Assembly (NCBI GenBank): GCA_903907925.1
Contig: CAIVQB010000060.1
Span: forward strand, 1-64,000
Source: an uncultured Verrucomicrobiota bacterium
Lineage (GTDB): Bacteria; Verrucomicrobiota; Verrucomicrobiia; Limisphaerales; UBA9464
DNA: 64,000 nucleotides
Reading direction: 5' to 3'
The position numbers and the translations under genes were made by a program. Below are positions 44,376 to 60,243 of this stretch, in pieces; positions within the stretch are counted from its first letter, which is position 1, and every line of letters begins with the position of its first letter. Below the pieces are notes generated by a model that was not told the DNA's origin, did no database searches, and worked only from the letters and a program-made list of their open reading frames with translations.

Positions 44376-45788
44376 TCAGATCGTTCGCGGGCTGACGGCG
44401 TCGACCACCTGGTCGCCGGCGGTCACGTTTCCGAGGATCACCGCGGTGTCGCCACGCTTCAGCTTGCCTTCGCGCACCAGCAGGGCGAGCGCGGCGTCGA
44501 CCGTTTTCTCGGGTTGTGAATAGAAGAACGGCGTGACCCGCGGGTGAACTCCGCGACACAGCGTCAGCGCGTCGGCCGCCGGCCAGCGATCGGCGAAGGC
44601 GTAGATCGGGGAGTACTGGGGTCGCAACCACGATACGTACCGCGCCATGTGGCCTCGTCGGGTGAACACAATCAGTGCGGCCGCCCGCAGTTCGTTGGCC
44701 AGCAGGACGGCGCTTTTCGCCAGTTTTTGTCGTGGCGAGGTGAGTTCCGCGAGTTCGTGGTAGCGGGCCCCACCGCTGCGTTCGATCCGGCAGGTGATGG
44801 TGTTGAACACCTCAAGACACTGGAGCGGATACCTCCCCACGGTGGTTTCGCCGCTCAACATGATGGCGTCGGCCATCTCGAAGGTGGCGTTGGCGACGTC
44901 GGTGATCTCGGCGCGCGTCGGCATCGGATTCGAAATCATGCTCTCCAGCAGGTGAGTGGCGACGATGACCGGCCGGCCCAGTTCCTGGCATTTCTTGACG
45001 ATCCGCCGCTGGATGATGGGGAGTTCCTCGAACGGACATTCGATTCCGAGGTCCCCGCGGGCGACCATCACAGCGTCTGCGACCCGCGCGATGGCCTCGA
45101 AATGATCGACCGCAAACTGGTGTTCGATCTTGGCGATCAGCCGCGGTTGATGGGGTGAGTTGGCAACCAGGGCCCGCAATTCCTCCATGTCGGATGGATC
45201 CCGCACGAAGCTGAGGGCGATGTAATCAACCCCGACCTCGAGTCCCAGCGCGATGTCGGCGCGATCCTTTTCTGTGAGAGCCGGCATCGACACACGGACG
45301 CCGGGGAGATTGATGTGACGACGGCTTCCCATCGAACCCTCGGTCAAAACTTCGCATTCGACCCGCGTGGCGGTCTTGGCCAGGACGCGCATCCGGATCT
45401 CACCATTGTCGACGATGATGGTTTTCCCGACTTCAACATCGGCGGCAAACCGGTCGTAGCCGACGCTGGTGGACAACACTCCCTCGGGAACCGGGTCCAC
45501 GTCCTCACGGGTTAGAAACAGGAAACGGTCTCCGACGCGCAGCGGGATTTTGCTCGCGACATCACCGGTGCGGATGGCCGGACCCTGGGTGTCGAGCAGG
45601 ATGCCGACCGAGATACCGCGGGCCTTGGCGTGGTCGCGGAGATCCCGCACCACTCGCCGCACCCAGTCCGCCGGCGCATGCGACATGTTGAGACGAGCGA
45701 TGTTCATGCCCGCATCGATCATGCGGCCGAGCATTTCGGTGGAATCGGTGGCCGGTCCGAGCGTTGCAATGATCTTGGTTTTGCGCAT
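44376..45788 (-). CDS. pyk: Pyruvate kinase
   Basis: This enzyme converts phosphoenolpyruvate and ADP into pyruvate and ATP in glycolysis. The 470-aa protein starts MRKTKIIATLGPATDS, then ARLNMSHA, GILLDTQGPAIRTG, LSFVRDPSDM, the catalytic region MVARGDLGIE, and VIVATHLLESMI...PTRAEITDVANATFEMADAIMLSGET. The C-terminal regulatory domain is present but short. It is the last gene of the seven-gene minus-strand run, separated from the REC-HATPase gene by 79 bases, so it may have its own promoter. The product may use a non-standard activator; nothing in the sequence says which. Confidence 0.97.
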   Translation of the reverse strand: MRKTKIIATLGPATDSTEMLGRMIDAGMNIARLNMSHAPADWVRRVVRDLRDHAKARGISVGILLDTQGPAIRTGDVASKIPLRVGDRFLFLTREDVDPVPEGVLSTSVGYDRFAADVEVGKTIIVDNGEIRMRVLAKTATRVECEVLTEGSMGSRRHINLPGVRVSMPALTEKDRADIALGLEVGVDYIALSFVRDPSDMEELRALVANSPHQPRLIAKIEHQFAVDHFEAIARVADAVMVARGDLGIECPFEELPIIQRRIVKKCQELGRPVIVATHLLESMISNPMPTRAEITDVANATFEMADAIMLSGETTVGRYPLQCLEVFNTITCRIERSGGARYHELAELTSPRQKLAKSAVLLANELRAAALIVFTRRGHMARYVSWLRPQYSPIYAFADRWPAADALTLCRGVHPRVTPFFYSQPEKTVDAALALLVREGKLKRGDTAVILGNVTAGDQVVDAVSPRTI

Positions 45789-45867: not shown

Positions 45868-47154
45868 TCAAGCCGGAGGGGGCTTGTGTCCGTCCGGCAC
45901 CGCGGCGGGGATCCAAAGAAAGGCGGAGGTGCCGACCCCGGGGGTCGTCTTCAGGTGCAGGGCGCACCGGCTGGTCGACACCAGTTCGCGGATGACCGAG
46001 AGTCCGAGTCCAACATCGCCCTGATCATGCTTGGTGGTGAGCGGATGAACGAACAGGTGTCGCCAGAGCGCGGGCGGGATGCCCGGGCCGGTGTCGCGGA
46101 CTTCGACCACCACGGCCGGCGGACGGTTGTCGAAGGTGTCCCGAAGAACGATGCAGCCCTCGTCGGGTCGGGATTCGGGAAGACGGGCGGGTTCGGTCGA
46201 AATCCAGCTTTCGACAAAGACCTGGTGGGGTGCCACGCAGGCTTCCAGGGCGTTGCGGCCGAGATTGGAAAGGATGCGCAGCACGGCGACCGGATGAGCC
46301 CGCAGATGGATCGGATCGGAGGGTGGGCGGACGGTCAATTGATGACGCTTGGCACCGCGATGGGCTCGAAGCAGTCGCCGCAGATCTTCAAACACCGGTG
46401 CGGCATCAACGGTTGCGGGAGGCGACTGGACTTCCGTCTGGGGCGGTTTGGAGATCCGCCGGCACAGCGCCGCCTGGCGCGCAAGCGTGGCTACTTCGCG
46501 ACGCCAGTCCTGAATTTGATCCGAGCTCGGCAGGGTGGCCCGGCCGAGATCGACCTCCAGAGCCTCCAATCCACCGGTGATTCCCGCCAGGGCGTCCGAA
46601 ATCTCGCCGGTGATGCTGGCGAGCAGATGACGTTCGTGGAGTGCGGCGTCGCCGTTCAGCGCGGCCAGGCGCAGCGCGGCTTCGCGTTTGCGTTCGAAGC
46701 GCAGCCAGTCGCGTCGTCGGGCCGCCTGTTGCACCGCCAACCGCAGGACCTGAAGTTCGAAGGGCTTGGGGAGAAAATCGAAAACGCCGAGGCGGACCGC
46801 CTTGCGCGCCATTTCAAAGGTGTTCTGTCCGCTGAGAATCACCGTCTGCACCTCGGGATCGATGACCCGGAGCCGTTCGATGAACTCGATGCCTGACATG
46901 CCCGGCATGCGGAGATCGACCACCGCGACATCGATCGTCCCGCGCTGTAGTCCGGACAGGGCGTCGGGACCCGAACCCGCGAGCCGGACCTCGAACATGT
47001 GGTCGAAAATCAGCCGCAGGGCCTCCCGGAGCGGTTCGTCGTCGTCGACCACCAGCACCACCGGCCGGCGGACCGAGGCCCGCGGGATGTCGGCGTGTTC
47101 CTCGGCACCCGTTTGCGGCGGGATTTCACCGAGGCGAATGGTGCGGGAATTCAT
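45868..47154 (-). CDS. Receiver + HATPase protein, PhcR/PhcQ-type
   Basis: A 428-aa protein with a receiver domain (about 33-150; DDDE at 37-40, phospho-acceptor D80 in VDLRMPGMSG, KPF at the end) and a C-terminal HATPase_c domain (about 290-420; N-box region LGRNALEACV, DTGPGIPPALW, VGLGLSVIREL). The region between (about 180-230) is helical, with a possible degenerate His motif; I do not see a clear HisKA histidine. Such a receiver with a kinase-like output and no DNA-binding domain matches PhcR/PhcQ of the Ralstonia phc operon by layout. It lies 11 bases behind the previous receiver-kinase gene, so it is in the same transcript. Confidence 0.85.
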   Translation of the reverse strand: MNSRTIRLGEIPPQTGAEEHADIPRASVRRPVVLVVDDDEPLREALRLIFDHMFEVRLAGSGPDALSGLQRGTIDVAVVDLRMPGMSGIEFIERLRVIDPEVQTVILSGQNTFEMARKAVRLGVFDFLPKPFELQVLRLAVQQAARRRDWLRFERKREAALRLAALNGDAALHERHLLASITGEISDALAGITGGLEALEVDLGRATLPSSDQIQDWRREVATLARQAALCRRISKPPQTEVQSPPATVDAAPVFEDLRRLLRAHRGAKRHQLTVRPPSDPIHLRAHPVAVLRILSNLGRNALEACVAPHQVFVESWISTEPARLPESRPDEGCIVLRDTFDNRPPAVVVEVRDTGPGIPPALWRHLFVHPLTTKHDQGDVGLGLSVIRELVSTSRCALHLKTTPGVGTSAFLWIPAAVPDGHKPPPA

Positions 47155-47165
47155 GGGTCAGGCCA

Positions 47166-48419
47166 TCAAGCGGTGGCCAGCAATCGTTCCCACAGCCGTT
47201 CATTGGTCATCACCCGGACCAGGAAATCCTCGCTTTCGATTCCTGGCGCTCCCGCCGACGGTTTCACCGGAAGGAGGATCTGAAAGACCAGTCCGCCGTC
47301 GGCACCTGGTTCTACCGAGATGGTTCCACCGTGATGATGCACGATGAAATAGCATCCCATGAGATTGATTCCGAACTCGTCGGTGTTGTCACTCCGGACA
47401 AAGAACGGATCGAACAGGGAACGGATCGCCTCCTCGGGAAGCCCGGGTCCGTCGTCCTCGATGCGGATGCAGATCGAAGCGGATGCGGCGACGAACGAGG
47501 CCTCGAATTTGACCGTGGCCTGTTCCTGAAGATTGGCGATTTCGTCGCGAAGGATCAGGTCTAGCAGTTTCTCCGCCTTGGGAAGATCGACCCACAGATG
47601 CGGGAGATCGGCTGGGATTCGGTTGAGAACCTGGAGGCGGCGCTGCGCGATTTTTTCGGAATGACGGGCGGTGGCACCGGCAACCAGGTCGCGGAGGCTG
47701 ACCTCGGAATCGAATTCAAACCGGGTGGGCTGGGCATCCTCCGACAGGTGATTGAGCAGTTCCACCAACGCCTTCATCCGGTCCTGAACCTTGGCGTGAA
47801 AATCCTGCCAGAAGGCGGGGTTTTGCAGGCGTCCGAGGTCGATACTCTCCCGATGCAACATCTCCGGCGCGAGGTCGATGAAGGTGCGGATCGCCGCCAT
47901 CGAATTGCGGACATGCTGGCCGAGACCCGCCGCCAGGACACCAAGTCCGAGGATGCGGTCGGTGATGACCATCTTGTGAATGGCCGAAAGTTTCTCCGAC
48001 AGCAACTGGTCGCGTTCCCGCTGGACGATGAAGAATTCCAGGCAACGCTTGAGCGTCTGCTCGATGGATTCGCCGTCGAACGGCTTGGTGATGTACTTGT
48101 AGATGGCACCGGTGTTGACCGCCGCGATGGCCGCGTCCAGATCGGAAAAGGCAGTGGCCAGGATCCGGATGGTGCGGGGACGGAATTGCCGGACCCTTTC
48201 CAGGAACTGAACGCCCTTGGTGCCGGGCATCCGCTGGTCCGACATCACCACGGCAATGGAATCGGCATGCTGTTCCAGCAACCGGAAGCCCTCCTCGGCA
48301 TTTGGTGCCGTGAAGATCCGGAAGGTGTCGCGAAACGCCCGTTCGAAATTCTTCAGCGACAACTCCTCGTCATCCACATAAAGGATGCCGAAGCGGCGAT
48401 AATCGTAGTGCGAATCCAT
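47166..48419 (-). CDS. Receiver + histidine kinase protein, PhcR/PhcQ-type
   Basis: A 417-aa protein. The receiver (about 10-125) begins FGILYVDDEEL, with phospho-acceptor D61 in MSDQRMPG and ATAFSDLDAAIAAVNTGAIY leading to YITKPFD. This is the pattern of the PhcQ/PhcR and RpfG-like receivers. A dimerisation helix (GVLAAGLGQHVRNSMAAIRTF, H169) and HATPase_c (VDLPKAEKLLDLILRDEIANL, IEDDGPGLPEEAI, GINLMGCYFIVHHHGG) follow. No DNA-binding domain is present. In the phc operon the corresponding proteins relay the 3-hydroxy-palmitate-methyl-ester signal. The gene lies 19 bases behind the hybrid kinase gene. That it takes phosphate from that kinase is inferred from position. Confidence 0.87.
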   Translation of the reverse strand: MDSHYDYRRFGILYVDDEELSLKNFERAFRDTFRIFTAPNAEEGFRLLEQHADSIAVVMSDQRMPGTKGVQFLERVRQFRPRTIRILATAFSDLDAAIAAVNTGAIYKYITKPFDGESIEQTLKRCLEFFIVQRERDQLLSEKLSAIHKMVITDRILGLGVLAAGLGQHVRNSMAAIRTFIDLAPEMLHRESIDLGRLQNPAFWQDFHAKVQDRMKALVELLNHLSEDAQPTRFEFDSEVSLRDLVAGATARHSEKIAQRRLQVLNRIPADLPHLWVDLPKAEKLLDLILRDEIANLQEQATVKFEASFVAASASICIRIEDDGPGLPEEAIRSLFDPFFVRSDNTDEFGINLMGCYFIVHHHGGTISVEPGADGGLVFQILLPVKPSAGAPGIESEDFLVRVMTNERLWERLLATA

Positions 48420-48438
48420 TGACCCTTGCCATGGTGTG

Positions 48439-51123
48439 TCATACGGCCAGCGGGAATTCCAATGTAAATTCGCTCCATTCCCCCGGTTGGCTCTTCAGAT
48501 GGATGCGGCCATCGAGCTCGGAAATGATCCGGTAACAGATGCTCAACCCGAGTCCGGTACCCTCGCCCACCTCCTTGGTGGTGAAGAAAGGATCGAAGAT
48601 TTTACCCTGAATCTCCTCGGGAATTCCCGGCCCGTTGTCGCGGAGGGTCACGGTCCGGACTCCGGAATGATCGGCACCGGAGAAGGTGATTTCAGCCTGC
48701 TGGCCCTCGGGATATTGCTTGTGGGCGGTGGCATCGACAGCGTTTTCCAGCAGGTTAATGAAGACCTGAATCAGGCGGTTTTTGTTGGCGCGAACGGTCA
48801 GACCGGCGGGGAGGGTGTTGACGATCCGGATCCGGTCCCCGATCTCGGCCGACAGGAAGCGGAGGGCAGAGGTGACGACGTCCGCCAGATCCACCTGGTC
48901 CATGCTCAGGCTGTCGGGATGGGTGAAGCTCCGGAGATCGGAAACGATGCCAGCCACCCGGGTGATGCCGTTTTCGATGTCGGCCAGAATGTCGATGAAG
49001 TCCGCCTGATCCGCCTCGGGAACCCGTCGTCCGATCTTCCGCAGGGTGAACAGGCCGGTCTTCGCGTAGTTCAGCGGGTTGTTGATTTCGTGGATGATGC
49101 CCGCGCTGAGCCGGCCGAGGGAGGCCAGCTTTTCGGATTGGACCAGTTGCAGTTCGGTTTCCTTGAGATCCTCGAGGGTGGCTTCGAGGATTTGTTTCTG
49201 CCGGACCAATTGTCGTTGCAGCTTGTGGGATTCGACGAGATTGCTGAGGCGCAGATGGAGTTCGGTTCCGGAAAACGGCTTGGTGAGGAAATCGTTCGCA
49301 CCGGCGGCCAGTCCGGCGAGCTTGGTGGCTTCGTCTGCCCGCGCGGTGAGCAGGACGATCGGAATGGAACGGGTCGTGAGCCGCTCGCGGAGTTCGCGGC
49401 AGACCTGCAATCCGTCCTTCTCCGGCATCATCATGTCACACAGCACGGCCTCCGGCAGATATTGCGCAGCCCGATCAATCGCCTGCTGACCGTCGACCGC
49501 CTCGATCACCCGGAAATGCGGCGACAACTGGGTCCTGAGGAATTGCAGCATGTCGGGTTCGTCATCGGCGACCAGCATGGTGGGGCGGGCGTCGCGGACC
49601 GGAGCCTCCTCCGTGCTGACCGATTCCCGGAGTGACGACAGCGCGGGAAACAGTTCAGCGCGGCGGTACAATTCGACCAGCCACTTGTCGCGGGGTTCCT
49701 CGGCGGGCACGTCCGGCGTCGCGGAAACGGAGGGGATCTCAACCCCGGGATCGATCCAGGGCAGCGAAACGGTGAAGGTGGTGCCCTTGTCCACCACACT
49801 GGCCACCGAGACCGTTCCGCTTTGGGCCTCGACGAGTTCCTTCACCAGGGCGAGGCCGATGCCGGCGCCCTGATGTTTGCGTCGCGCCGAAGTGTCCGCC
49901 TGCCAGAAGCGGTCGAAGACGTAGGGCAGTTGGTCGGGATGAATTCCCATCCCGGTGTCGCGCACCTCCAGGATGAGGCGGTCGGCATCGCGTCGCGCCT
50001 GGCAATCGATGGTGCCCCCGCTCGCGGTGAACTTGATCGCGTTGATGATCAGATTGAGCAGCACCTTCTCGATCTTGTCGGGGTCGGCCATCACCGTGCC
50101 CGGGGAGGGATCGGTCAAGGCCCGCAGACGAAGTCCTCGATCCAGGGCGAGCGATGCGGCCGAGGAAACGATGCCCTGGACCAACTGGCCCGCATCGACG
50201 CGTTGACGGGTGACGCTCATGCCACCGGAATCCAGACGAACGAGATCCAGCAGGTCGTTGATCAGCTTGAGGAGTCTCAGCCCGTTGACCTGCATGCGGT
50301 GCAGTTCGACGGCGATTTCGGCGGGTGTGGCGGCTGCGCCGCGGGCGCGGAGTGCGTCGAGCGGTGCCAGCAGGAGGGTGAGCGGCGTCCGGAGTTCGTG
50401 GCTGATGTTGGCGAAGAACCGGCTCTTCAATTCGTCCAGTTCGCGCAGGCGGCGGTTGGATTCCTCGAGCAGCCGCTGATTCCGGTCCAGTTCGAAGCGG
50501 AAGGTGAATTCACGGATTCGCAACTGATTGTAGAGCCAGTTGCCGGCGATCACGATGACCCCGGTGAGGCTGAGGAAATAGAGATTGTTGACCAGGTTGG
50601 AGGCGTTGAACGCAGACGAACGGGCACCGACAAAACAGGCGGCGATATACAGCAGGAGGGTGGATGCCGCGATGGCCAGCGATTCGCGAAGCGTCCAGCG
50701 GGCGACCACGTTGACGGCGATGAGGACAAGGTTGAGCCCGGCGTAGTAGCTCGAGTTCATGCCCCCTTCGCGGGCGATCATGACCGCGATGAAAAAGGCG
50801 GGGAGCAGCGCGATGGGTGGACCCAGCCAGCGGACCCGGCGTTGTCCCCAAGCCGTGTAGTGGGCGGCCAGCAGAAGGCCGGTCAGGGCGGAACACAGCA
50901 ACCGCAGGCCGAGGAACGGGATGAGGGATTCGTGATAGACGAAGGCATCGAGGAGCGATCCGAGCGGCATCAAGACGATGACCAGGGTGCAGCCCAGTTT
51001 TCCGATGCGAAGGCGTTCCCGTCGGTCCTCCTCGAGAAAGGCGGCCCGGAATTCCGCCGGATCCACCGGCTCAGGCGGCGAGGGGCTTGCGGACTTCAAT
51101 GTAGATGTTGACGCCCGTGTCAT
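48439..51123 (-). CDS. Hybrid sensor kinase with two kinase modules and one receiver (PhcS-like position)
   Basis: An 894-aa protein. About six membrane segments (42-200) form an integral sensor without a large periplasmic loop. Then comes HisKA with H242 (SHELRTP), a first HATPase_c (DTGMGIHPDQLPYVFDRF, GAGIGLALVKEL), a receiver with D563 (CDMMMPEKDG), a coiled coil, and a second kinase core with H678 (AGIIHEINNPLNY) plus HATPase_c (DNGPGIPEEIQGKIFDPF, GTGLGLSICYRI). PhcS of Ralstonia is a membrane kinase in the same operon position but simpler. The start is uncertain: the ATG at 51123 overlaps the methyltransferase gene by 53 bases, and a GTG at 51066, five bases past that stop, is an alternative. 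A lipid-like signal sensed within the membrane is plausible. Confidence 0.88.
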   Translation of the reverse strand: MTRASTSTLKSASPSPPEPVDPAEFRAAFLEEDRRERLRIGKLGCTLVIVLMPLGSLLDAFVYHESLIPFLGLRLLCSALTGLLLAAHYTAWGQRRVRWLGPPIALLPAFFIAVMIAREGGMNSSYYAGLNLVLIAVNVVARWTLRESLAIAASTLLLYIAACFVGARSSAFNASNLVNNLYFLSLTGVIVIAGNWLYNQLRIREFTFRFELDRNQRLLEESNRRLRELDELKSRFFANISHELRTPLTLLLAPLDALRARGAAATPAEIAVELHRMQVNGLRLLKLINDLLDLVRLDSGGMSVTRQRVDAGQLVQGIVSSAASLALDRGLRLRALTDPSPGTVMADPDKIEKVLLNLIINAIKFTASGGTIDCQARRDADRLILEVRDTGMGIHPDQLPYVFDRFWQADTSARRKHQGAGIGLALVKELVEAQSGTVSVASVVDKGTTFTVSLPWIDPGVEIPSVSATPDVPAEEPRDKWLVELYRRAELFPALSSLRESVSTEEAPVRDARPTMLVADDEPDMLQFLRTQLSPHFRVIEAVDGQQAIDRAAQYLPEAVLCDMMMPEKDGLQVCRELRERLTTRSIPIVLLTARADEATKLAGLAAGANDFLTKPFSGTELHLRLSNLVESHKLQRQLVRQKQILEATLEDLKETELQLVQSEKLASLGRLSAGIIHEINNPLNYAKTGLFTLRKIGRRVPEADQADFIDILADIENGITRVAGIVSDLRSFTHPDSLSMDQVDLADVVTSALRFLSAEIGDRIRIVNTLPAGLTVRANKNRLIQVFINLLENAVDATAHKQYPEGQQAEITFSGADHSGVRTVTLRDNGPGIPEEIQGKIFDPFFTTKEVGEGTGLGLSICYRIISELDGRIHLKSQPGEWSEFTLEFPLAV

Positions 51124-52504
51124 CGGACTTGGTGACGACGTTGCCCGCCGGTGCCAGGGAGGGATGCAGTTGCTCGAGTTGTTCCGAATCCCGGTAGATC
51201 AGATGCCAGTCGAGCAGGAACTCCATTCCGCAGCGCGTGGGATTGCACGGATCCACGTTGGTGGCGATGAGAAGACCGCCGGGTTCAAGGAGATCGTAGA
51301 AAATGTTCATCAACCGCTGGCAGATACGGTCGGAAAGATAATCGAACAGTCCGGCGCAATAGACGACTTCGTAGCGCACGCGTCCGGCGGCTGGGCGGGC
51401 ACCCTCCTTGAGGACCTGGTGGACCGATTTTTTGACGAAGGAGATGTCGGTGCGACGGCCATGCTCCAGCTTGAGTCGTTCGAGACGGGACCGGGTGTAT
51501 TCCAGGGTTTCGTCGTTGAAATCCATCAGGGTGAAATCGAGCTCATTGCAGATCCCGTCGTGGCCGAGGAGTTCCTGGATTTCACCGGCCGGACCGCAGC
51601 CAAGATTGAGGATGCGGACGCGGCGACCGGAGGCGGCGACGTGGCGGGCCTCGGAGGAGAGCGTTTCGACGAGATACCGGATTCGATTCCGATGGGCGAG
51701 CGCCGGGGCGGAGTTGAGGAAGTACAGGTTGACCGTCTTGGCAAACAGCGAACCGCCCTCCAGCGGGTCGCGGAGGATCATGTTCACCATTTCATAGTCA
51801 CCGGCATAACCGAGCGGCTTCTGGAACGTCCGGTAGGCGAACGGCGAGCAGAGGACCAGCGGGTGCAACTGGCGTTTGATGTACGTCCGGTGCATCGGCT
51901 GCAGTTGCGGATCAATCGCATTGGCGATCGTTTCGAACCGCTTGAACAGGTCGTCGATGGTGGGCAGCACGCCGCGCCCGAGATCCTCGATCACCTGGCG
52001 CTCCAGTTGGATTCGATCTCCGGCGGGTGCCGATCGGATTCCCAGTTCCACCTGCTCCATCCAGCGGCGGAGATCCGCGAGCAGAGTCTGCATGTCGGCG
52101 ACCACCACCTTGAACTCCGGAGTAACCGAATGGATCTTGCGCCAGTCCTGGAGAAAATCCTCGAACTCGGCGAGAAGCCGTTCCCGGTTCCCGGCGGGCA
52201 GGAAGAGGTCAACGTCCAGCCACGCCTCCTCCAGCGTGGCTTCGCACATCAGCATGATGCCGGTGTTGACGAGACTGCTGACGACGGCGCGGCCGTGGTA
52301 GACGAGGCGGTCCTTGACCGTGATGCGGAACTCGCTGAGCACCTCGGACAACTGGACGATGCTGAACGGGTTGTAGACCTCGAAGACGACCGTGAAGCGG
52401 GTCAGGCGCACCGGGGTGGCGCGCACATCGGCGCCCTGGCTGTTCCGGCAACTGATGATCGTTTCGCGCTCACCAATCGGGGCGGTTGTGAGCTTGGTGC
52501 TCAT
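51071..52504 (-). CDS. PhcB-like SAM-dependent methyltransferase (fatty-acid methyl ester signal synthase candidate)
   Basis: A 477-aa protein. The C-terminal part (about 245-470) is a class I SAM methyltransferase: VRILNLGCGPAGEIQELLG (motif I), LDFTLMDFNDETLEYTRSRL (acidic strand 2), RYEVVYCAGLFDYLSDRICQRLM, and GGLLIATNVDPCNP. The first 110 residues are a beta-rich domain that reads like a PilZ fold. In between is a helical region (PLGYAGDYEMVNMILRD). This layout and the operon context match PhcB-type proteins, which methylate 3-hydroxy fatty acids in Ralstonia. The gene is followed directly by the sensor kinase and preceded by FadL and an SDR. The ATG at 52504 fits the domain start. Specific substrate not proven. 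Confidence 0.8.
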   Translation of the reverse strand: MSTKLTTAPIGERETIISCRNSQGADVRATPVRLTRFTVVFEVYNPFSIVQLSEVLSEFRITVKDRLVYHGRAVVSSLVNTGIMLMCEATLEEAWLDVDLFLPAGNRERLLAEFEDFLQDWRKIHSVTPEFKVVVADMQTLLADLRRWMEQVELGIRSAPAGDRIQLERQVIEDLGRGVLPTIDDLFKRFETIANAIDPQLQPMHRTYIKRQLHPLVLCSPFAYRTFQKPLGYAGDYEMVNMILRDPLEGGSLFAKTVNLYFLNSAPALAHRNRIRYLVETLSSEARHVAASGRRVRILNLGCGPAGEIQELLGHDGICNELDFTLMDFNDETLEYTRSRLERLKLEHGRRTDISFVKKSVHQVLKEGARPAAGRVRYEVVYCAGLFDYLSDRICQRLMNIFYDLLEPGGLLIATNVDPCNPTRCGMEFLLDWHLIYRDSEQLEQLHPSLAPAGNVVTKSDDTGVNIYIEVRKPLAA

Positions 52505-52630
52505 CCTGGGTGCCGGGGGGAACGGGACGGGTTCACCTGGGCGATTCTGGCACACGTGTCCGCACGGGCAAACTGGCAGTTCGCCCGGCTGGACCCCCCT
52601 ATTTCAGGGGTGGCACAGATGCGGAAGGCA

Positions 52631-53869
52631 TCAAAAATGCCAGCCGAACGTAAGAAGGATGGCATGGCTGATGAACCGGTAGCGGCCGTCTGCCGATTGT
52701 CCGAAGGCGTTGACACCGCTGCCGGCGACCGTCCGCTCGGGTCCGTACCCGAACTGATAGGCCAGGTCGACTCCGAGGTTGTTTTGTTTCCAGCCCACGC
52801 CGGCGCTGAGGAAATGCCGGTTCAGATCCGCCACCAGGGGCGAGTAGTGATTATCGGGCAGCGAGTTTTCATTGAAAATGTAGCCTCCACTCACGCTCCA
52901 GCCGTGTTCGAGGTACCGGGTGACACCGAACTCATAGTAGGCACTCGAACGCCAGTGCAACTCCTGGCTCACGTCCGGCAGCGGTGCCTGTTGGATGGTC
53001 AGGGTTTTCAGCCGGCTCCAGTCGGTCCAGTCGACGTCGAACTCCAGATTCCACTGCGGAGTGGGTCGATACGAAATACCGGCGGCGATGCTCTGGGGAA
53101 AGGCGAAGCGGGTTTGGGCGGCGGGATTGGCGTTGAACACCGGCGAAGTCAGCGTGGAGGTTCCCGTGAACTCCATCGTCGTCGCACTCTTGTAGGTGAG
53201 ACCGAACTGCCATTCCTTCACCGGATTCCAGAGGATCCCGGCGTTGAATCCCGGGTCCCAACCATTGCCCTTGAAGCGGTACTCGTCACCGACCCCTGCC
53301 GCCGGAGTCAGGAATCCCTGTCGCAGATCGACCTCGGCGAGGTTGAAGGTGGGACCGGCGGCGATGGATAGACCGGGCACCACCTTCCAGGCCGCCACCG
53401 GATGCAGCGTGAGATAGGTGAGACTGCCGCGGGTGGCGACGGTTCGGAATCCGGTGTCCTGCGGCCATTCACTGCTCAGGCCCATCGGGGAATACACGCC
53501 AAATCCGAAGGAGAACCGGCTGTCCGCGGGATTGAGCGTGTAAAAAATCTGCGGCACCGCGTGCAGATCCTTGGCGTTCGAATAGGTCTGCCCCGCCGGC
53601 GAGCGATAACGGACATCCAGCGAAAGCCCGTAGATTCCGGCGCGGAGTTGTTGTCCCTCCACCTGCGTGATGCCGGCCGGATTGTAGAACACTGCGGAGG
53701 CATTGTCGGCGGTGGCGACGAAGGCTTCCCCGCGGGCGGTGGCAAACGCGTCCTGATCCGGTAGCCGGAAGCCGGTGGCCACGGCCGGGTGGAGGGCAAC
53801 GAATCCGGCCAGTCCGGCGACGCCGGCCCAGGTGGTGCGCATCGCGCGCGGAGAGGGTTTGATGCTCAT
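52631..53869 (-). CDS. FadL/TodX-family outer-membrane long-chain fatty-acid transporter
   Basis: A 412-aa outer-membrane barrel protein with a signal peptide (about 1-31, cleaved near AVATG). It has the FadL N-terminal hatch motif GFRLPDQDAFATARGEAFVATADNASAVFYNPAGITQVEG, here shown only by its ends: the NPAG element is diagnostic. Barrel strands such as FGFGVYSPMGLSSEWP and WSVSGGYIFNENSLPDNHYSP follow, and the protein ends FGWHF as outer-membrane proteins do. FadL proteins take up long-chain fatty acids and, in some alpha-proteobacteria, acyl-homoserine lactones. Position next to the PhcB-like gene suggests passage of the fatty-acid signal. The ATG at 53869 gives a normal signal peptide; the upstream extension overlaps the SDR gene. 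Confidence 0.9.
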   Translation of the reverse strand: MSIKPSPRAMRTTWAGVAGLAGFVALHPAVATGFRLPDQDAFATARGEAFVATADNASAVFYNPAGITQVEGQQLRAGIYGLSLDVRYRSPAGQTYSNAKDLHAVPQIFYTLNPADSRFSFGFGVYSPMGLSSEWPQDTGFRTVATRGSLTYLTLHPVAAWKVVPGLSIAAGPTFNLAEVDLRQGFLTPAAGVGDEYRFKGNGWDPGFNAGILWNPVKEWQFGLTYKSATTMEFTGTSTLTSPVFNANPAAQTRFAFPQSIAAGISYRPTPQWNLEFDVDWTDWSRLKTLTIQQAPLPDVSQELHWRSSAYYEFGVTRYLEHGWSVSGGYIFNENSLPDNHYSPLVADLNRHFLSAGVGWKQNNLGVDLAYQFGYGPERTVAGSGVNAFGQSADGRYRFISHAILLTFGWHF

Positions 53870-53909
53870 GGAATCAGGGTGTGTGTGGGGGTGTGGCAGT
53901 GTGACAGTA

Positions 53910-54761
53910 TCAACGGTTCGTGCGGTTCGTGCGGTTCTGGCGTTCCGCTTCGGCCGCGGCGCGAAAAAATGCATTGGCTCCCGTCCATTGTGGCACCCGT
54001 TCCGCGAAGCCCGACCAAAGGGCCATGCAGGCAAGAAGAGGTCGCATCGGGTAGGTGTTGACGATGATTTCCGCGCGATCCCGGGTCAATGCCCGCAACG
54101 TGGCCCGGGCCACTTTTTCCGCGGAACAGGCGGCGAGCAACGGCGGCGCACCCCGACCGGTTCGATTCTTCATCCGCGCATAAATACCGGCGTCGACGAA
54201 TCCGGGCGTGATGACCGAGGCGCTCACACCGGTGCCGCGGTAGGTATTGCGCAGGGAATAGGTGAACGCGCTGAGCCCAGCTTTGGAGGCGGCGTACGGT
54301 TCCTGGAAGCCGGGTCCGGCCTTTCCCGCCAGCGAGGAGATGTTAAGGATGTGTCCCCGGCGGCGTTCCAGCATCCCGGGAAGGACCAGATGAGCGAGGC
54401 GCATCGGAGCCTCCAGATTGACGTTGAGCACCTCGATGATCTGAGCCGATGTCAGGTCATGGTAGGCGGCGGAGTATTCCACGCCGGCGTTGTTCACGAG
54501 CACGTCGACGTGTCCCAGGCGTTCCAATGCCACGTCGATGGTGCGGATCCGTTCGGAATCCAGTCGTAGGTCCGCTACCAGAACGGAGGCTTTCACCCCA
54601 TGTCGGGCGGCGATTGCCTGCGCCTGGTCGAGTCCGATGCCGGGATAGGCAACCAGCAACAGGTGGATGCCGGCGGCCGCGAGTGCCTCGGTCAGCGGGA
54701 GCCCCAATCCACCATTGGCACCGGTCAGAATGGCGGTGAGTCCGGTGGTGTCCGTGATCAT
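53910..54761 (-). CDS. Short-chain dehydrogenase/reductase
   Basis: A 283-aa classical SDR with TGANGGLG at 13-20, NNAGVEYS, NISSLAGKAG, and the catalytic PYAASKAG (YxxxK). The C-terminal tail is NRTNRTNR, coded by a 9-base tandem repeat, and is presumably neutral. SDRs of this type reduce ketones or fatty acyl/ketoacyl groups. Being first in the run with FadL and the PhcB-like gene, it could supply the 3-hydroxy group of the signal precursor; this is a guess from position. The next gene starts 40 bases after its stop. Confidence 0.88.
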   Translation of the reverse strand: MITDTTGLTAILTGANGGLGLPLTEALAAAGIHLLLVAYPGIGLDQAQAIAARHGVKASVLVADLRLDSERIRTIDVALERLGHVDVLVNNAGVEYSAAYHDLTSAQIIEVLNVNLEAPMRLAHLVLPGMLERRRGHILNISSLAGKAGPGFQEPYAASKAGLSAFTYSLRNTYRGTGVSASVITPGFVDAGIYARMKNRTGRGAPPLLAACSAEKVARATLRALTRDRAEIIVNTYPMRPLLACMALWSGFAERVPQWTGANAFFRAAAEAERQNRTNRTNR

Positions 54762-55533: not shown

Positions 55534-55783
55534 CGGAAGGTGGCCGGAATCGGTGCCCGCGATGGGCGCTGTCCGGCTGCTGTTCAGCCCGTCGTTCTGG
55601 TGGTGCTTCGGTCCAACCCGGATTCGAAACAGTTCCGGACACTTCACGGGCGTGATCGCCACAGTGGATTGCGCCCGTCACTTCGGCATTTCGTTGCCGT
55701 TCATTCCGCCGTCCGCGTTCGCGCGTGGCGTTGATCCCGTCAGATCCTGCCCGTTGTTTCACCGTGGTCCCTCTTTCGTTGTT

Positions 55784-57091
55784 ATGACTCTCTTTTGTCG
55801 TGGGTGTGTCGCCGCCTGGATTGCGGCTTCAGTTTCGGTGTGGAGCCCTGCCGCCCCACTGCCCGCTTCCGTACCTCCGTCACCGGTTTCGCCCGAAGCG
55901 TTCGTCGCCGAAGTGCTCGAACGGAATCCGGAACGCCGGTTTTATGAGGCGGAGATCACCCTGGCCCGAACCTCGGCGCGCCTGGCGACGCAACTCCCGC
56001 CGCCGGAGATCAGCGGGAGCGTCGGACGCAAACGCACCACCGACCTGGCCGGTCAACTGGCCGGCGAAGGCGTCGCCTGGAGTGCCGGGGTGTCGCAGAC
56101 CTTCGAATGGCCGGGACGGCTCGGACTGCGGAAGGCGATTGCCAATCGTGACGTGATTCTGGCGGAGCTGGGTTATGCCCGGTTCACGCATGCCCTTGCC
56201 GCGCGGGCCCGCTCGCTCGCGCTCGGACTCGCCTGCGCCACCGAGAAGGCCCGCGTGGCCGGGGAGGCGGCCGAGCGATTTCGTGCGTTGCGCGAGGTGC
56301 TGGTGCAGCGGGATCCGGCGGGGATCGCCCCGGTTCTGGAGATCCGGGTCCTGGAGGCGATGGAACTCAGTCTGCGTCGAAAGGCGGCGCAGGCGGACCT
56401 CGGTGTCCGAACCCTGCGGGCGGACCTCAATCCGTTGCGCGGGGAGCCGTCCGATCAGGCACTGGACATTCTTCTGATCGAGCCGGCACTCGGACCGGTT
56501 CCAAACCTGGAGACGGTTCTTGCCGCGGCTCAGACGAATAATTTCGAGTTGCGGGTTCGCGTGGTGGAACTGGAGCAGCAGGGATTCCGGGTTCAATTGT
56601 CGCGAAACGAACGCTGGCCGGCCTTCACCGTGGGCACTCACTACTCGGAGGAACGCTCCGATGCGCGGGATCAGATGGTCGGCATCGGAGTCAGTTTTCC
56701 GCTGCCGTTGTGGCGGAACACCGCGGTGCGCACCGAGGCCGCCGAAGCCCGCCGGGTGCAGGCCGCGACGGTGCTGGCAACGGCGCGTCGGGATCTGGAA
56801 CGCCGGATCGTGATCGCCGTGCGGGGGTATGAGGCGCGAACCGCCGAGCTTGCCCGCTGGCGCGGTGACACTGTGGAACAATTCCGCTCTGCCGCCGAAC
56901 TGGCCGACCGCCATTACCGCCTAGGAGCCGTTCCCGTCGCCACCTACGTCGAGCTGCAAAAACAGTATTATGAGGCGGTGGAATCGGTGCTGGAGACGCG
57001 TCGCGAGATCCTCGAGGACGCCCAGGAAATCGAACAGCTCTCCGGTGTCCCGGTTCTCGGTCACGCCAACCCCCAACCGGCAACCCCATGA
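55784..57091 (+). CDS. TolC/CusC-type outer-membrane efflux channel
   Basis: A protein of about 435 aa, with a signal peptide (MTLFCRGCVAAWIAASVSVW) and the outer-membrane efflux protein fold: paired coiled-coil helices (EAEITLARTSARLATQLPPP, then strands SAGVSQTFEWPGRLGLRKAI, the 'GRR/G' beta hairpin, and a second repeat GVSFPLPLWRNTAVRTEAAEA...). It ends in EQLSGVPVLG. This is the channel of a tripartite RND pump. The stop overlaps the start of the RND gene by four bases (ATGA), so they are coupled. The usual adaptor gene between channel and pump is absent. I used the ATG at 55784, which gives a clean signal peptide. Confidence 0.88.
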   Translation: MTLFCRGCVAAWIAASVSVWSPAAPLPASVPPSPVSPEAFVAEVLERNPERRFYEAEITLARTSARLATQLPPPEISGSVGRKRTTDLAGQLAGEGVAWSAGVSQTFEWPGRLGLRKAIANRDVILAELGYARFTHALAARARSLALGLACATEKARVAGEAAERFRALREVLVQRDPAGIAPVLEIRVLEAMELSLRRKAAQADLGVRTLRADLNPLRGEPSDQALDILLIEPALGPVPNLETVLAAAQTNNFELRVRVVELEQQGFRVQLSRNERWPAFTVGTHYSEERSDARDQMVGIGVSFPLPLWRNTAVRTEAAEARRVQAATVLATARRDLERRIVIAVRGYEARTAELARWRGDTVEQFRSAAELADRHYRLGAVPVATYVELQKQYYEAVESVLETRREILEDAQEIEQLSGVPVLGHANPQPATP

Positions 57092-60000
57092 TCGATCGGA
57101 TCCTTGAAATCGCCTTGCGCCAGCGGGTCGTGGTGCTGCTCGGCGCGGTCGCCCTCCTGCTGGTCGGCATCTGGGCGGCGCGCGACCTGCCGATCGACGC
57201 CGTTCCTGACATCACCCAGCCCCAGGTCCAGATCAACACCGAAATCCAGGCTCTCGCACCCGAGGAGGCGGAATTGCTGGTGACCCGGATTCTCGAACAG
57301 GAACTGGCCGGCTTGCCGCGGGTGACCGAGATGCGGTCGCTGACCAAGTTCGGATTGTCGCAGGTCACACTGCAATTCGAAGACGGAGTCGACATCTACC
57401 GTTGCCGCCAACTGGTGACCGAACGAATCCAGGCGGTGCGCGACCGCCTGCCGTCCGGGGCCGAACCGCGGCTGGCACCGATCACCACCGGTCTGGGCGA
57501 GATTTTCTACTACACCCTGGCCTGGACCGCCGGATCCACCAACGCACCGGCGACGGAAATGGAACAGCTCATGGAGTTGTTCGAGGCCCAGGAATACATT
57601 GCCAAACCCTTCCTCCGATCCACACCCGGGGTCGCTGAGGTGAATTCGATCGGCGGACACGAACGCCAGTATGTCATTCATCCGGATCCCAAGCGGCTGC
57701 ACGACGCCAATCTCACCTTTGGCGAACTGGCCGACATCGTTGCCCGCAACACCCTCAATTCCGGTGGTGGCATTATCAACCAATCCGGCCGAAAATTGAT
57801 CGTTCGCGCGGTTAGCAAGGCGCAGACGGCGGAGGAACTGGCGAATCTGCCGGTGAAGTTCGCCGCGGGTTCGAGTCCGCTCCGGGTCCGGGATCTCGCC
57901 GACGTGGAGGTGGACGCGGCGGTCCGGACCGGCGCGGCGACCGAGAATGGCAGGGAAACCGTCCTGGGAACGGTGATGATGCTGGCCGGTGAGAACAGCC
58001 GCATTGTCGCCCACCGGATCGGTGAGCGGATGAGACAATTGCAGGAACGCCTGCCGACCGGCGTGGAGGCCCGCGTTCAGTATGACCGGTCGGAGCTGGT
58101 GGACCGCACCATCGGCACGGTGCGGAAGAACCTGTTTGAAGGCGCCATTCTGGTGGTCGCCGTTCTCCTCGGACTTCTCGGAAGCTGGCGCGCGGCGTTG
58201 ATCGTGGCCACGGCCATTCCGTTGTCCTTTCTCTGCGCCCTGATCGGAATGTCCTACCTCGGGATCTCCGGCAACTTGATGAGCCTTGGCGCGGTGGACT
58301 TCGGATTGATCATCGATGGCGCGGTCGTGATTGTAGAAAACATCGTCCGGCAGGTGGCCCACCGGCAGCAGCAGCTTGGGCGCGGGCTCACGGCGGAGGA
58401 ACGGGCGCGGACCGTTTTGGCGGCCTCGAAACAGGTGGCGGGTCCGATGTTCTTCGGCGTGCTGATCATCACCGTCGTCTACCTTCCCATCCTGGCGCTC
58501 TCGGGGATCGAGGGGAAAATGTTCAAGCCAATGGCTCTGACCGTGATGCTCGCCCTCGGAGCGGCGCTGGTGCTGGCCCTCACCCTGATGCCAGCCCTCG
58601 CGTCGTTGCTGCTGCGGAGTCCCGTCGGTGAATCCGAGAACCAGCTGATGCGCCACGCCGGGGAGGTTTATCGTCGTTTGCTGAATGCCGCCCTGGCGCG
58701 TCGCGCGATCGTCATCGGAACGGCCCTCGGCCTCTGCGCGTTGGCGGGCTTCATTCTTCCGCGGCTGGGAGCCGAGTTCGTCCCCACCCTGGATGAGGGC
58801 TCCACTACCATGATGTTGTACCGGCCGGTCGGGCAGAATCTGGCGTCGTCGGTCGCCGATCAGCTAAAGACCGAGGAACTCGTCCGGCGGAAGTTTCCCG
58901 AGGTTTCGCGGGTGTTTGCCCGCATCGGCACCTCCGAAGTGGCGACGGATCCCATGCCGCCGAACGAGGCGGATTTCTACGTCTTCTACCGGCCCCGCTC
59001 GGAATGGGCCTCGCGCGACGGCTCTGTTCCGACCAAGACGGCCCTGGCTCGGAAGGTGGCCGCTGAACTTCAGTCCACGATGACGAATACCACGGCGCTG
59101 GTGGCCCAGCCGATTGAGATGCGGTTCAATGAGATGCTGGAGGGCGTTCGCTCCGATATTTCGGCGAAGGTGTTCGGTCCCGACTTCGAAGTCCTCGAAT
59201 CCCTGGCCCGCCGAATCAAGGAACTGTTGGAAAAGCTCCCGGGCTCCAGCGAGGTGGAGTTTGAAACCGAGGGCCGGTCACCGGTGCTGACCGTCACCGC
59301 GCGGAAGGACGTCCTCGCCCGGCGCAACATCTCTTCCGGTGCCGTCAATTCCGCCATCGCCACGGCGCTGGCCGGTCAAACGGTGGGCACGCTGTCGCAT
59401 GATGGACATGTTCACGAAGCGGTCGTCCGGCTGCGGGGCGATCTTCGGGATCAGTTGGAACAAATTCGCGCCCTCGATGTCCGGGTGGGGGAATCGGGTT
59501 TGATCCCGCTCGGAGACCTGGTCGACATTCAAACGGTGGAATCCGTCGAGCCGATCCGCCGGGATGATGGCCGGCGTCGTTCCGCGGTCATGGTGAATCT
59601 CAACACCGCCGATGTGGAGGGTTGGGTCCGTTCGGCGCAGGCGCGGGTGCATGAGGTGGTCCCACTGCCCGAAGGCTACACGGTGGAATTCGGAGGCAAG
59701 TTCGAGCATTTGCGGGAGGCACGCGCGCGCTTGATGATCGTGGTTCCGGCGGCTCTGTCGCTCATTCTGGTGCTGGTATTTCTGGCGTTTCGGAGCGTCC
59801 GGCAGGCGCTGGTGGTGTGTTCCGGGATTCCCCTGGCGCTGACTGGCGGCGTGCTCGCCCTGGCGGTGCGCGGCATGCCCTTCAGCATCACCGCCGCGGT
59901 CGGGTTCATCGCTCTCAGCGGTGTGGCGGTGTTGAATGGGGTGGTGATGGTCAGCTACTTCAACGAACTTCGCGAAGAGGGCCGCGAATTGATGGCGGCG

Positions 60001-60243
60001 GTGATTGAAGGGGCGCTCACCCGGTTGCGGCCGGTGTTGATGACGGCCCTGGTGGCGTCACTGGGATTTGTACCGATGGCGCTCGCGACGGGTGCGGGTG
60101 CCGAAGTTCAACGTCCGCTGGCGACGGTGGTGATCGGAGGTATCTTGAGCTCCACGTTGCTGACCCTGCTCGTCCTGCCGGTCCTGTATGCGTGGATCGA
60201 ATTTCGCAAGCCGGTCCTTGCACCAGGGGCGAACCCGGGTTGA
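57088..60243 (+). CDS. CusA/CzcA-type heavy-metal RND efflux pump
   Basis: A 1,051-aa inner-membrane proton/metal antiporter. It starts MIDRILEIALRQRVVVLLG, then DLPIDAVPDITQPQVQINT (the HME-RND signature DxxVP), and the helix-4 motif DFGLIIDGAVVIVENIVRQ with the conserved Asp and Glu pair of metal-transporting members. A later ALSGVAVLNGVVMVSY segment is the helix-10/11 counterpart. It therefore exports a metal such as Cu(I), Ag(I), Zn or Co; which one cannot be read off. It is coupled to the TolC-type gene by an ATGA overlap. No adaptor gene of the CusB kind is in the window. Confidence 0.95.
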   Translation: MIDRILEIALRQRVVVLLGAVALLLVGIWAARDLPIDAVPDITQPQVQINTEIQALAPEEAELLVTRILEQELAGLPRVTEMRSLTKFGLSQVTLQFEDGVDIYRCRQLVTERIQAVRDRLPSGAEPRLAPITTGLGEIFYYTLAWTAGSTNAPATEMEQLMELFEAQEYIAKPFLRSTPGVAEVNSIGGHERQYVIHPDPKRLHDANLTFGELADIVARNTLNSGGGIINQSGRKLIVRAVSKAQTAEELANLPVKFAAGSSPLRVRDLADVEVDAAVRTGAATENGRETVLGTVMMLAGENSRIVAHRIGERMRQLQERLPTGVEARVQYDRSELVDRTIGTVRKNLFEGAILVVAVLLGLLGSWRAALIVATAIPLSFLCALIGMSYLGISGNLMSLGAVDFGLIIDGAVVIVENIVRQVAHRQQQLGRGLTAEERARTVLAASKQVAGPMFFGVLIITVVYLPILALSGIEGKMFKPMALTVMLALGAALVLALTLMPALASLLLRSPVGESENQLMRHAGEVYRRLLNAALARRAIVIGTALGLCALAGFILPRLGAEFVPTLDEGSTTMMLYRPVGQNLASSVADQLKTEELVRRKFPEVSRVFARIGTSEVATDPMPPNEADFYVFYRPRSEWASRDGSVPTKTALARKVAAELQSTMTNTTALVAQPIEMRFNEMLEGVRSDISAKVFGPDFEVLESLARRIKELLEKLPGSSEVEFETEGRSPVLTVTARKDVLARRNISSGAVNSAIATALAGQTVGTLSHDGHVHEAVVRLRGDLRDQLEQIRALDVRVGESGLIPLGDLVDIQTVESVEPIRRDDGRRRSAVMVNLNTADVEGWVRSAQARVHEVVPLPEGYTVEFGGKFEHLREARARLMIVVPAALSLILVLVFLAFRSVRQALVVCSGIPLALTGGVLALAVRGMPFSITAAVGFIALSGVAVLNGVVMVSYFNELREEGRELMAAVIEGALTRLRPVLMTALVASLGFVPMALATGAGAEVQRPLATVVIGGILSSTLLTLLVLPVLYAWIEFRKPVLAPGANPG

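Follow-up and report, generated by a model that had tools for sequence, protein, structure and literature searches.

The phcBSRQ operon is documented in Cupriavidus (PMC2864759; PMC2842291), where the Phc products match those of GMI1000 at 56-75% (PMC2842291). In Ralstonia, PhcB is 464-468 aa, PhcR 368-374 aa and PhcQ 336-337 aa long (PMC8578825), the phospho-histidine of PhcS is H230 (PMC11960443), and replacement of PhcB R22 by Cys lowers signal production (PMC6989110). A survey within Proteobacteria described phc as restricted and betaproteobacterial, and also covered Cqs/Lqs quorum sensing (CqsA/CqsS, LqsA/LqsS) (PMC10653808). For hydrophobic signals of another kind, the available part of PMC9938287 describes uptake of long-chain AHLs through FadL in Sinorhizobium (with reference to Krol and Becker 2014), and that part reports no linkage of fadL to signal genes.

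We analysed a stretch of 64,000 nucleotides from an uncultured Verrucomicrobiota bacterium (hereafter the window), in which six ORFs follow one another on the minus strand. The first two encode a short-chain dehydrogenase/reductase (SDR; 53910..54761, 283 aa, Pfam adh_short) and an outer-membrane channel of the FadL/OmpP1/TodX family (FadL; 52631..53869, 412 aa, Pfam Toluene_X, E 1e-54). They are followed by a PhcB-type methyltransferase (MT; 51071..52504, 477 aa, Pfam Methyltransf_25), a PhcS-type hybrid sensor kinase in which two HisKA/HATPase pairs flank a Response_reg domain (HK; 48439..51123, 894 aa), and two response regulators that each contain Response_reg and HATPase domains, the PhcQ-like RR1 (47166..48419, 417 aa) and RR2 (45868..47154, 428 aa). 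From SDR to RR2, the gaps are 40, 126, -53 (an overlap), 19 and 11 bp. A previous interpretation made without database searches (the sequence-only reading) had proposed this order and these coordinates, with spacings of 11-126 bases or an overlap, and all ORFs and Pfam domains agreed with it. The order SDR-FadL-MT-HK-RR1-RR2 was unbroken in two congeners of the window organism (loci L149 and L150). Promoter and terminator scans of the operon gave no excess over chance. A pyruvate kinase gene (window 44376-45788) lies on the same strand 79 bp downstream of RR2, and genes for an outer-membrane efflux protein and an AcrB-type RND pump (window 55553-60243) lie upstream of the operon on the opposite strand.

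Like phcBSRQ, the window operon has a methyltransferase of about equal length and, downstream of it, a six-helix sensor kinase and receiver regulators without DNA-binding domains. The likeness extends to a reciprocal-only match with PhcB, a PhcQ-like receiver and the conserved phospho-histidine of PhcS. The window operon differs from phcBSRQ in the kinase-receiver module inserted in its sensor, in an RR1 that keeps a kinase-like domain, in a generic RR2, in the SDR and FadL genes that precede it, in having no known PhcA (LysR-type) output regulator, and in coming from a different phylum. In Cqs/Lqs quorum sensing, a membrane sensor kinase is likewise coupled to a signal synthase, which is a PLP enzyme making alpha-hydroxyketones and not a methyltransferase. 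The window operon shares with these systems the combination of sensor kinase and synthase, but it has no PLP synthase. FadL-dependent AHL perception in Sinorhizobium, as presented in the available part of its source, resembles the window operon in that a FadL-family channel serves a hydrophobic quorum-sensing signal; however, the signal there is an AHL, whereas in the window the FadL gene neighbours that of a PhcB-type synthase.

The comparison with PhcB was made via Cupriavidus proteins and not the Ralstonia sequence. The locus of C. pinatubonensis (L100) encodes a methyltransferase of 463 aa, a kinase of 443 aa, a REC-kinase of about 377 aa and a REC protein of 335 aa, and was taken as the probable orthologue of the published Cupriavidus phc operon because gene order and lengths agree. 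With the window MT as query, the sole match in each Cupriavidus genome was PhcB (42-43%, E 1e-112 to 3e-117); with Cupriavidus PhcB as query, the window MT was the sole match in the window genome. This reciprocal best and only match bears out the PhcB-type methyltransferase of the sequence-only reading. The homology spans the full length, the 477 aa of the window MT being close to the length of PhcB, and identity to the PhcB of L100 was 43.9% over 449 aligned residues. R22 of PhcB aligns with R28 of the window MT, and both the full-length architecture and the motif residues were conserved among the MT homologues. A PDB sequence search with the window MT returned no useful match, and no PhcB model matching it was found in NCBIfam. 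Several more distant matches were rejected as orthologues. Those opened from Rhizobium, Roseateles and a Deinococcus plasmid covered the C-terminal half only and had no phc neighbourhood, and 319-aa homologues (P0007; L055, L056) were distant relatives with their own HK and RR neighbours. The latter form a second unit (L055:7505-11346 and L056:6360-10224) comprising the 319-aa methyltransferase, a 495-497-aa kinase and an RR1-like protein, in genomes that also hold a full phc-type system.

Structure prediction for the window MT gave a model with a mean pLDDT of 81, in which a PilZ-fold N-terminal domain (about residues 15-91) and a helical middle part precede a class I Rossmann methyltransferase domain (about residues 290-475). 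The predicted core is that of a class I methyltransferase, with a best Z of 19.6 to 3ocj, itself of unknown function. When the N-terminal domain (residues 1-105, window 52190-52504) was modelled alone, a six-strand barrel was predicted (pLDDT 82); the top 20 VIA-align matches to it were PilZ-containing chains, PilZ domains taking nearly all of the leading positions (Z up to 10.2), and Foldseek matched it to PilZ with E of only 0.01-0.1. The N-terminus is therefore predicted to adopt a PilZ-like fold. We do not claim c-di-GMP binding; the canonical motif RxxxR / [DN]xSxxG was not seen by inspection of the window MT or of the invariant columns of alignment A4. A text search for PhcB together with PilZ led to a paper whose available part mentions pilZ merely as a pilus gene.

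Six N-terminal membrane helices were predicted for the window HK, as for PhcS, and the protein holds two complete kinase modules. The membrane parts of HK and PhcS match at 30-35% over 150-174 aa (35% over 155 aa, E 1e-17). The C-terminal kinase of HK matches that of PhcS at 32-37% with 130-149 bits, whereas the inner kinase reaches 44-61 bits. Because the C-terminal kinase fits PhcS far better than the inner kinase does, the best reading of HK from these alignments is a PhcS-type sensor into which a HisKA-HATPase-receiver module has been inserted. H231 of the L100 PhcS, equivalent to Ralstonia H230, aligns with H678 of HK. Mapping of PhcQ R154 and PhcS L161 onto the window proteins was set aside owing to numbering offsets.

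The sequence-only reading had likened the two regulators to the receivers of phcBSRQ, and the RR1 receiver proved nearer to PhcQ (48%) than to PhcR (33-36%). RR1 joins this receiver to a kinase-like domain with a degenerate ATP site: the receiver D and the Q of the DQRMP motif were invariant in 72/72 RR1 homologues, and the ATP-site N-box was unrecognisable. RR2 has the domain order of PhcR (receiver and HATPase) and a merely generic similarity to it; the H-box histidine, kept in 12 of 18 RR2 rows, is absent from the window RR2. Neither regulator has a DNA-binding domain. A small AraC-type HTH protein (130-150 aa) is encoded just after RR1 in L041, L042, L043, L044, L045 and other loci, and is a possible output regulator.

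The distribution counts cover the class of the window organism within Verrucomicrobiota, and Pseudomonadota. Other members of the class have the 16S site of probe EUB338-III, and two of them that of VER47, which is consistent with Verrucomicrobiota; the assembly of the window organism gave no match to the probe site, so that on these data its phylum is assigned through the other class members. MT was found in 78 of the 384 genomes of the class (about one in five), and a PhcB-type MT in 6 of 349 sampled Pseudomonadota, a rough contrast given that the query and threshold differed from those of the class count. A scan of genome contigs gave at least 570 relatives in the PhcB family, with at least 80 Betaproteobacteria among the matches listed. 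The MT-HK-RR1 block was present in most of the 76 class loci that we read, and in 15 class loci the kinase was scored as shorter, most of these kinases being 450-510 aa long and so about the size of PhcS.

FadL was frequently encoded beside this block. The window FadL, the sole one detected in the window genome, matches Toluene_X (PF03349; cut-off 29.7 bits) along the barrel with a score of 186 bits. FadL is scarce in the class, with 83 copies in the 78 MT carriers and any FadL in 124 of 384 genomes. Nevertheless, it lay within 8 kb of MT in 40 of the 78 carrier genomes against 0.32 expected by chance (the P value for this linkage ignores the relatedness of the genomes), so that the link between FadL and the operon, offered as inference in the sequence-only reading, is statistically strong. 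The linkage spans 22 of 44 genera and 16 of 28 families. The linked FadL was upstream on the same strand in 15 cases, upstream and divergent in 17, and downstream in 9, and, mapped on the MT tree, the trait must have changed 19 times or more; these varied layouts and changes indicate that the linkage is recurrent and not one inherited layout. In the FadL tree, linked copies fell mostly in two clades, and a separate clade held solely unlinked FadLs; most of these came from family f3, in which several genomes have a linked FadL as well. About half of the phc-type loci of the class are without FadL as a neighbour, and in some of these cases FadL is missing from the whole genome. Two of the loci without a neighbouring FadL carry an OprB-family porin gene 16-56 bp upstream of MT (L183:7169-8701 and L177:10600-12078). 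Among betaproteobacterial phc loci, FadL was found in 0 of 81, up to about 8 kb on each side.

Other genes adjoining the block were more sporadic. The window SDR has intact TGxxxGxG, NNAG, S and YxxxK motifs and is a candidate 3-oxoacyl reductase, although its best equivalog matches were below cut-off and it is not a clear FabG. A dedicated 3-oxoacyl-ACP reductase helps DSF synthesis (PMC5941067). With 50% identity as the lower limit, orthologues of the window SDR (52-77% identity) were near MT in just four other loci (L149, L150, L158 and L173), which makes the role of SDR the weakest link of our interpretation; less similar SDR pairs adjoin FadL in other loci. In 11 loci, all of a single MT clade, a type I PKS (KS-AT-DH-ER-KR-ACP) of 2,082-2,134 aa is encoded 18-78 bp upstream of MT (L048:2767-9039, L049:2378-8713, L046:2549-8827 and eight further loci). 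Its position directly upstream of MT points to an acyl chain as the MT substrate. No thioesterase was detected in the one PKS scanned. A gene for a tryptophan-halogenase-like flavoprotein lies divergently upstream of MT in L038-L040, which belong to one genus.

The sequence-only reading had named two findings that would refute it, the absence of a reciprocal match to PhcB-type enzymes and a gene order not kept in relatives, and neither was observed. Taken with the reciprocal PhcB match and the gene order kept among relatives, these data support the phc-type quorum-sensing proposal of the sequence-only reading, and we consider it probable that the operon encodes Phc-type signalling by an acyl methyl ester, with FadL admitting the signal to the sensor. 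The signal would be a hydrophobic methyl ester that MT makes from a precursor, 3-hydroxyacyl or of a similar acyl type, which SDR may supply or tailor. The ester would leave the cell and re-enter via FadL across the outer membrane, reaching the six-helix PhcS-type sensor. HK, with its extra kinase-receiver module, would then pass phosphoryl groups to RR1 and RR2 in a putative phosphorelay leading to the presumed output. That half of the carriers keep FadL beside the core genes suggests that the channel passes the signal, and uptake appears more likely than the export proposed in the sequence-only reading, in view of the FadL-mediated uptake of long-chain AHLs by Sinorhizobium. As a counterpoint, betaproteobacterial phc systems function although no FadL gene is linked to them.

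The chemistry of the signal leaves room for another interpretation. A Phc-like unit might use a different methylated signal, such as the ester of a polyketide acid, with FadL and SDR taking part in its chemistry. Identity between the window MT and PhcB is only about 43%, the MTs accompanied by a PKS group in a single clade beside betaproteobacterial PhcB, and several further accessory genes adjoin the block, all of which would suit such a signal; yet the full-length architecture and motif residues of MT are conserved, and linkage to a fatty-acid channel fits a long acyl chain. We regard this alternative as possible but doubtful. The operon could also serve environmental sensing, FadL importing an external hydrophobic compound (a fatty acid, a hydrocarbon or a neighbour's signal) that HK senses, while MT modifies the compound or a membrane component. 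FadL channels are best known for importing fatty acids and hydrocarbons (PMC7728783), and FadL is often divergent from MT and outside its operon. However, as in phc, the synthase homologue and the sensor almost always occur together, and in one clade a PKS stands beside MT instead, implying synthesis over uptake. We consider environmental sensing unlikely. That FadL and SDR are mere genomic neighbours without a part in the signalling unit could be argued from the abundance of SDRs, the rare linkage of the window SDR and the many loci without FadL. For FadL, this is hard to hold against linkage in half of the carriers, across 22 genera and in several layouts, and we consider such a chance association very improbable.

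The MT trees were quick searches covering Verrucomicrobiota and betaproteobacterial sequences. In them, the MTs of the two groups were split by one branch with support of 100, and the betaproteobacterial clade joined the PKS-linked clade with support of 98. Under midpoint or distant-outgroup rooting, the betaproteobacterial MTs fell inside the diversity of Verrucomicrobiota. A transfer from Verrucomicrobiota to Betaproteobacteria might account for this, which we offer as a suggestion only. More speculatively, phc-type ester signalling might be chiefly a trait of Verrucomicrobiota, with its own outer-membrane channel and, in one branch, a PKS, and the phc system of Ralstonia and Cupriavidus might be a transferred, channel-less offshoot; we hold this wider scenario to be tentative and rather unlikely.

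A full-text literature search found no paper tying phcB homologues to Verrucomicrobia. The phc-type variant with FadL is widespread in the class and, judging by the literature searched, undescribed there. Verrucomicrobiota are abundant in soil and water, and their cell-to-cell communication has been little studied. If our interpretation is correct, a type of signalling that controls virulence in plant pathogens would be common in Verrucomicrobiota, and a fatty-acid-ester signal would have a genetically linked outer-membrane channel, so that the route by which hydrophobic signals of this type pass the outer membrane would become a testable question.
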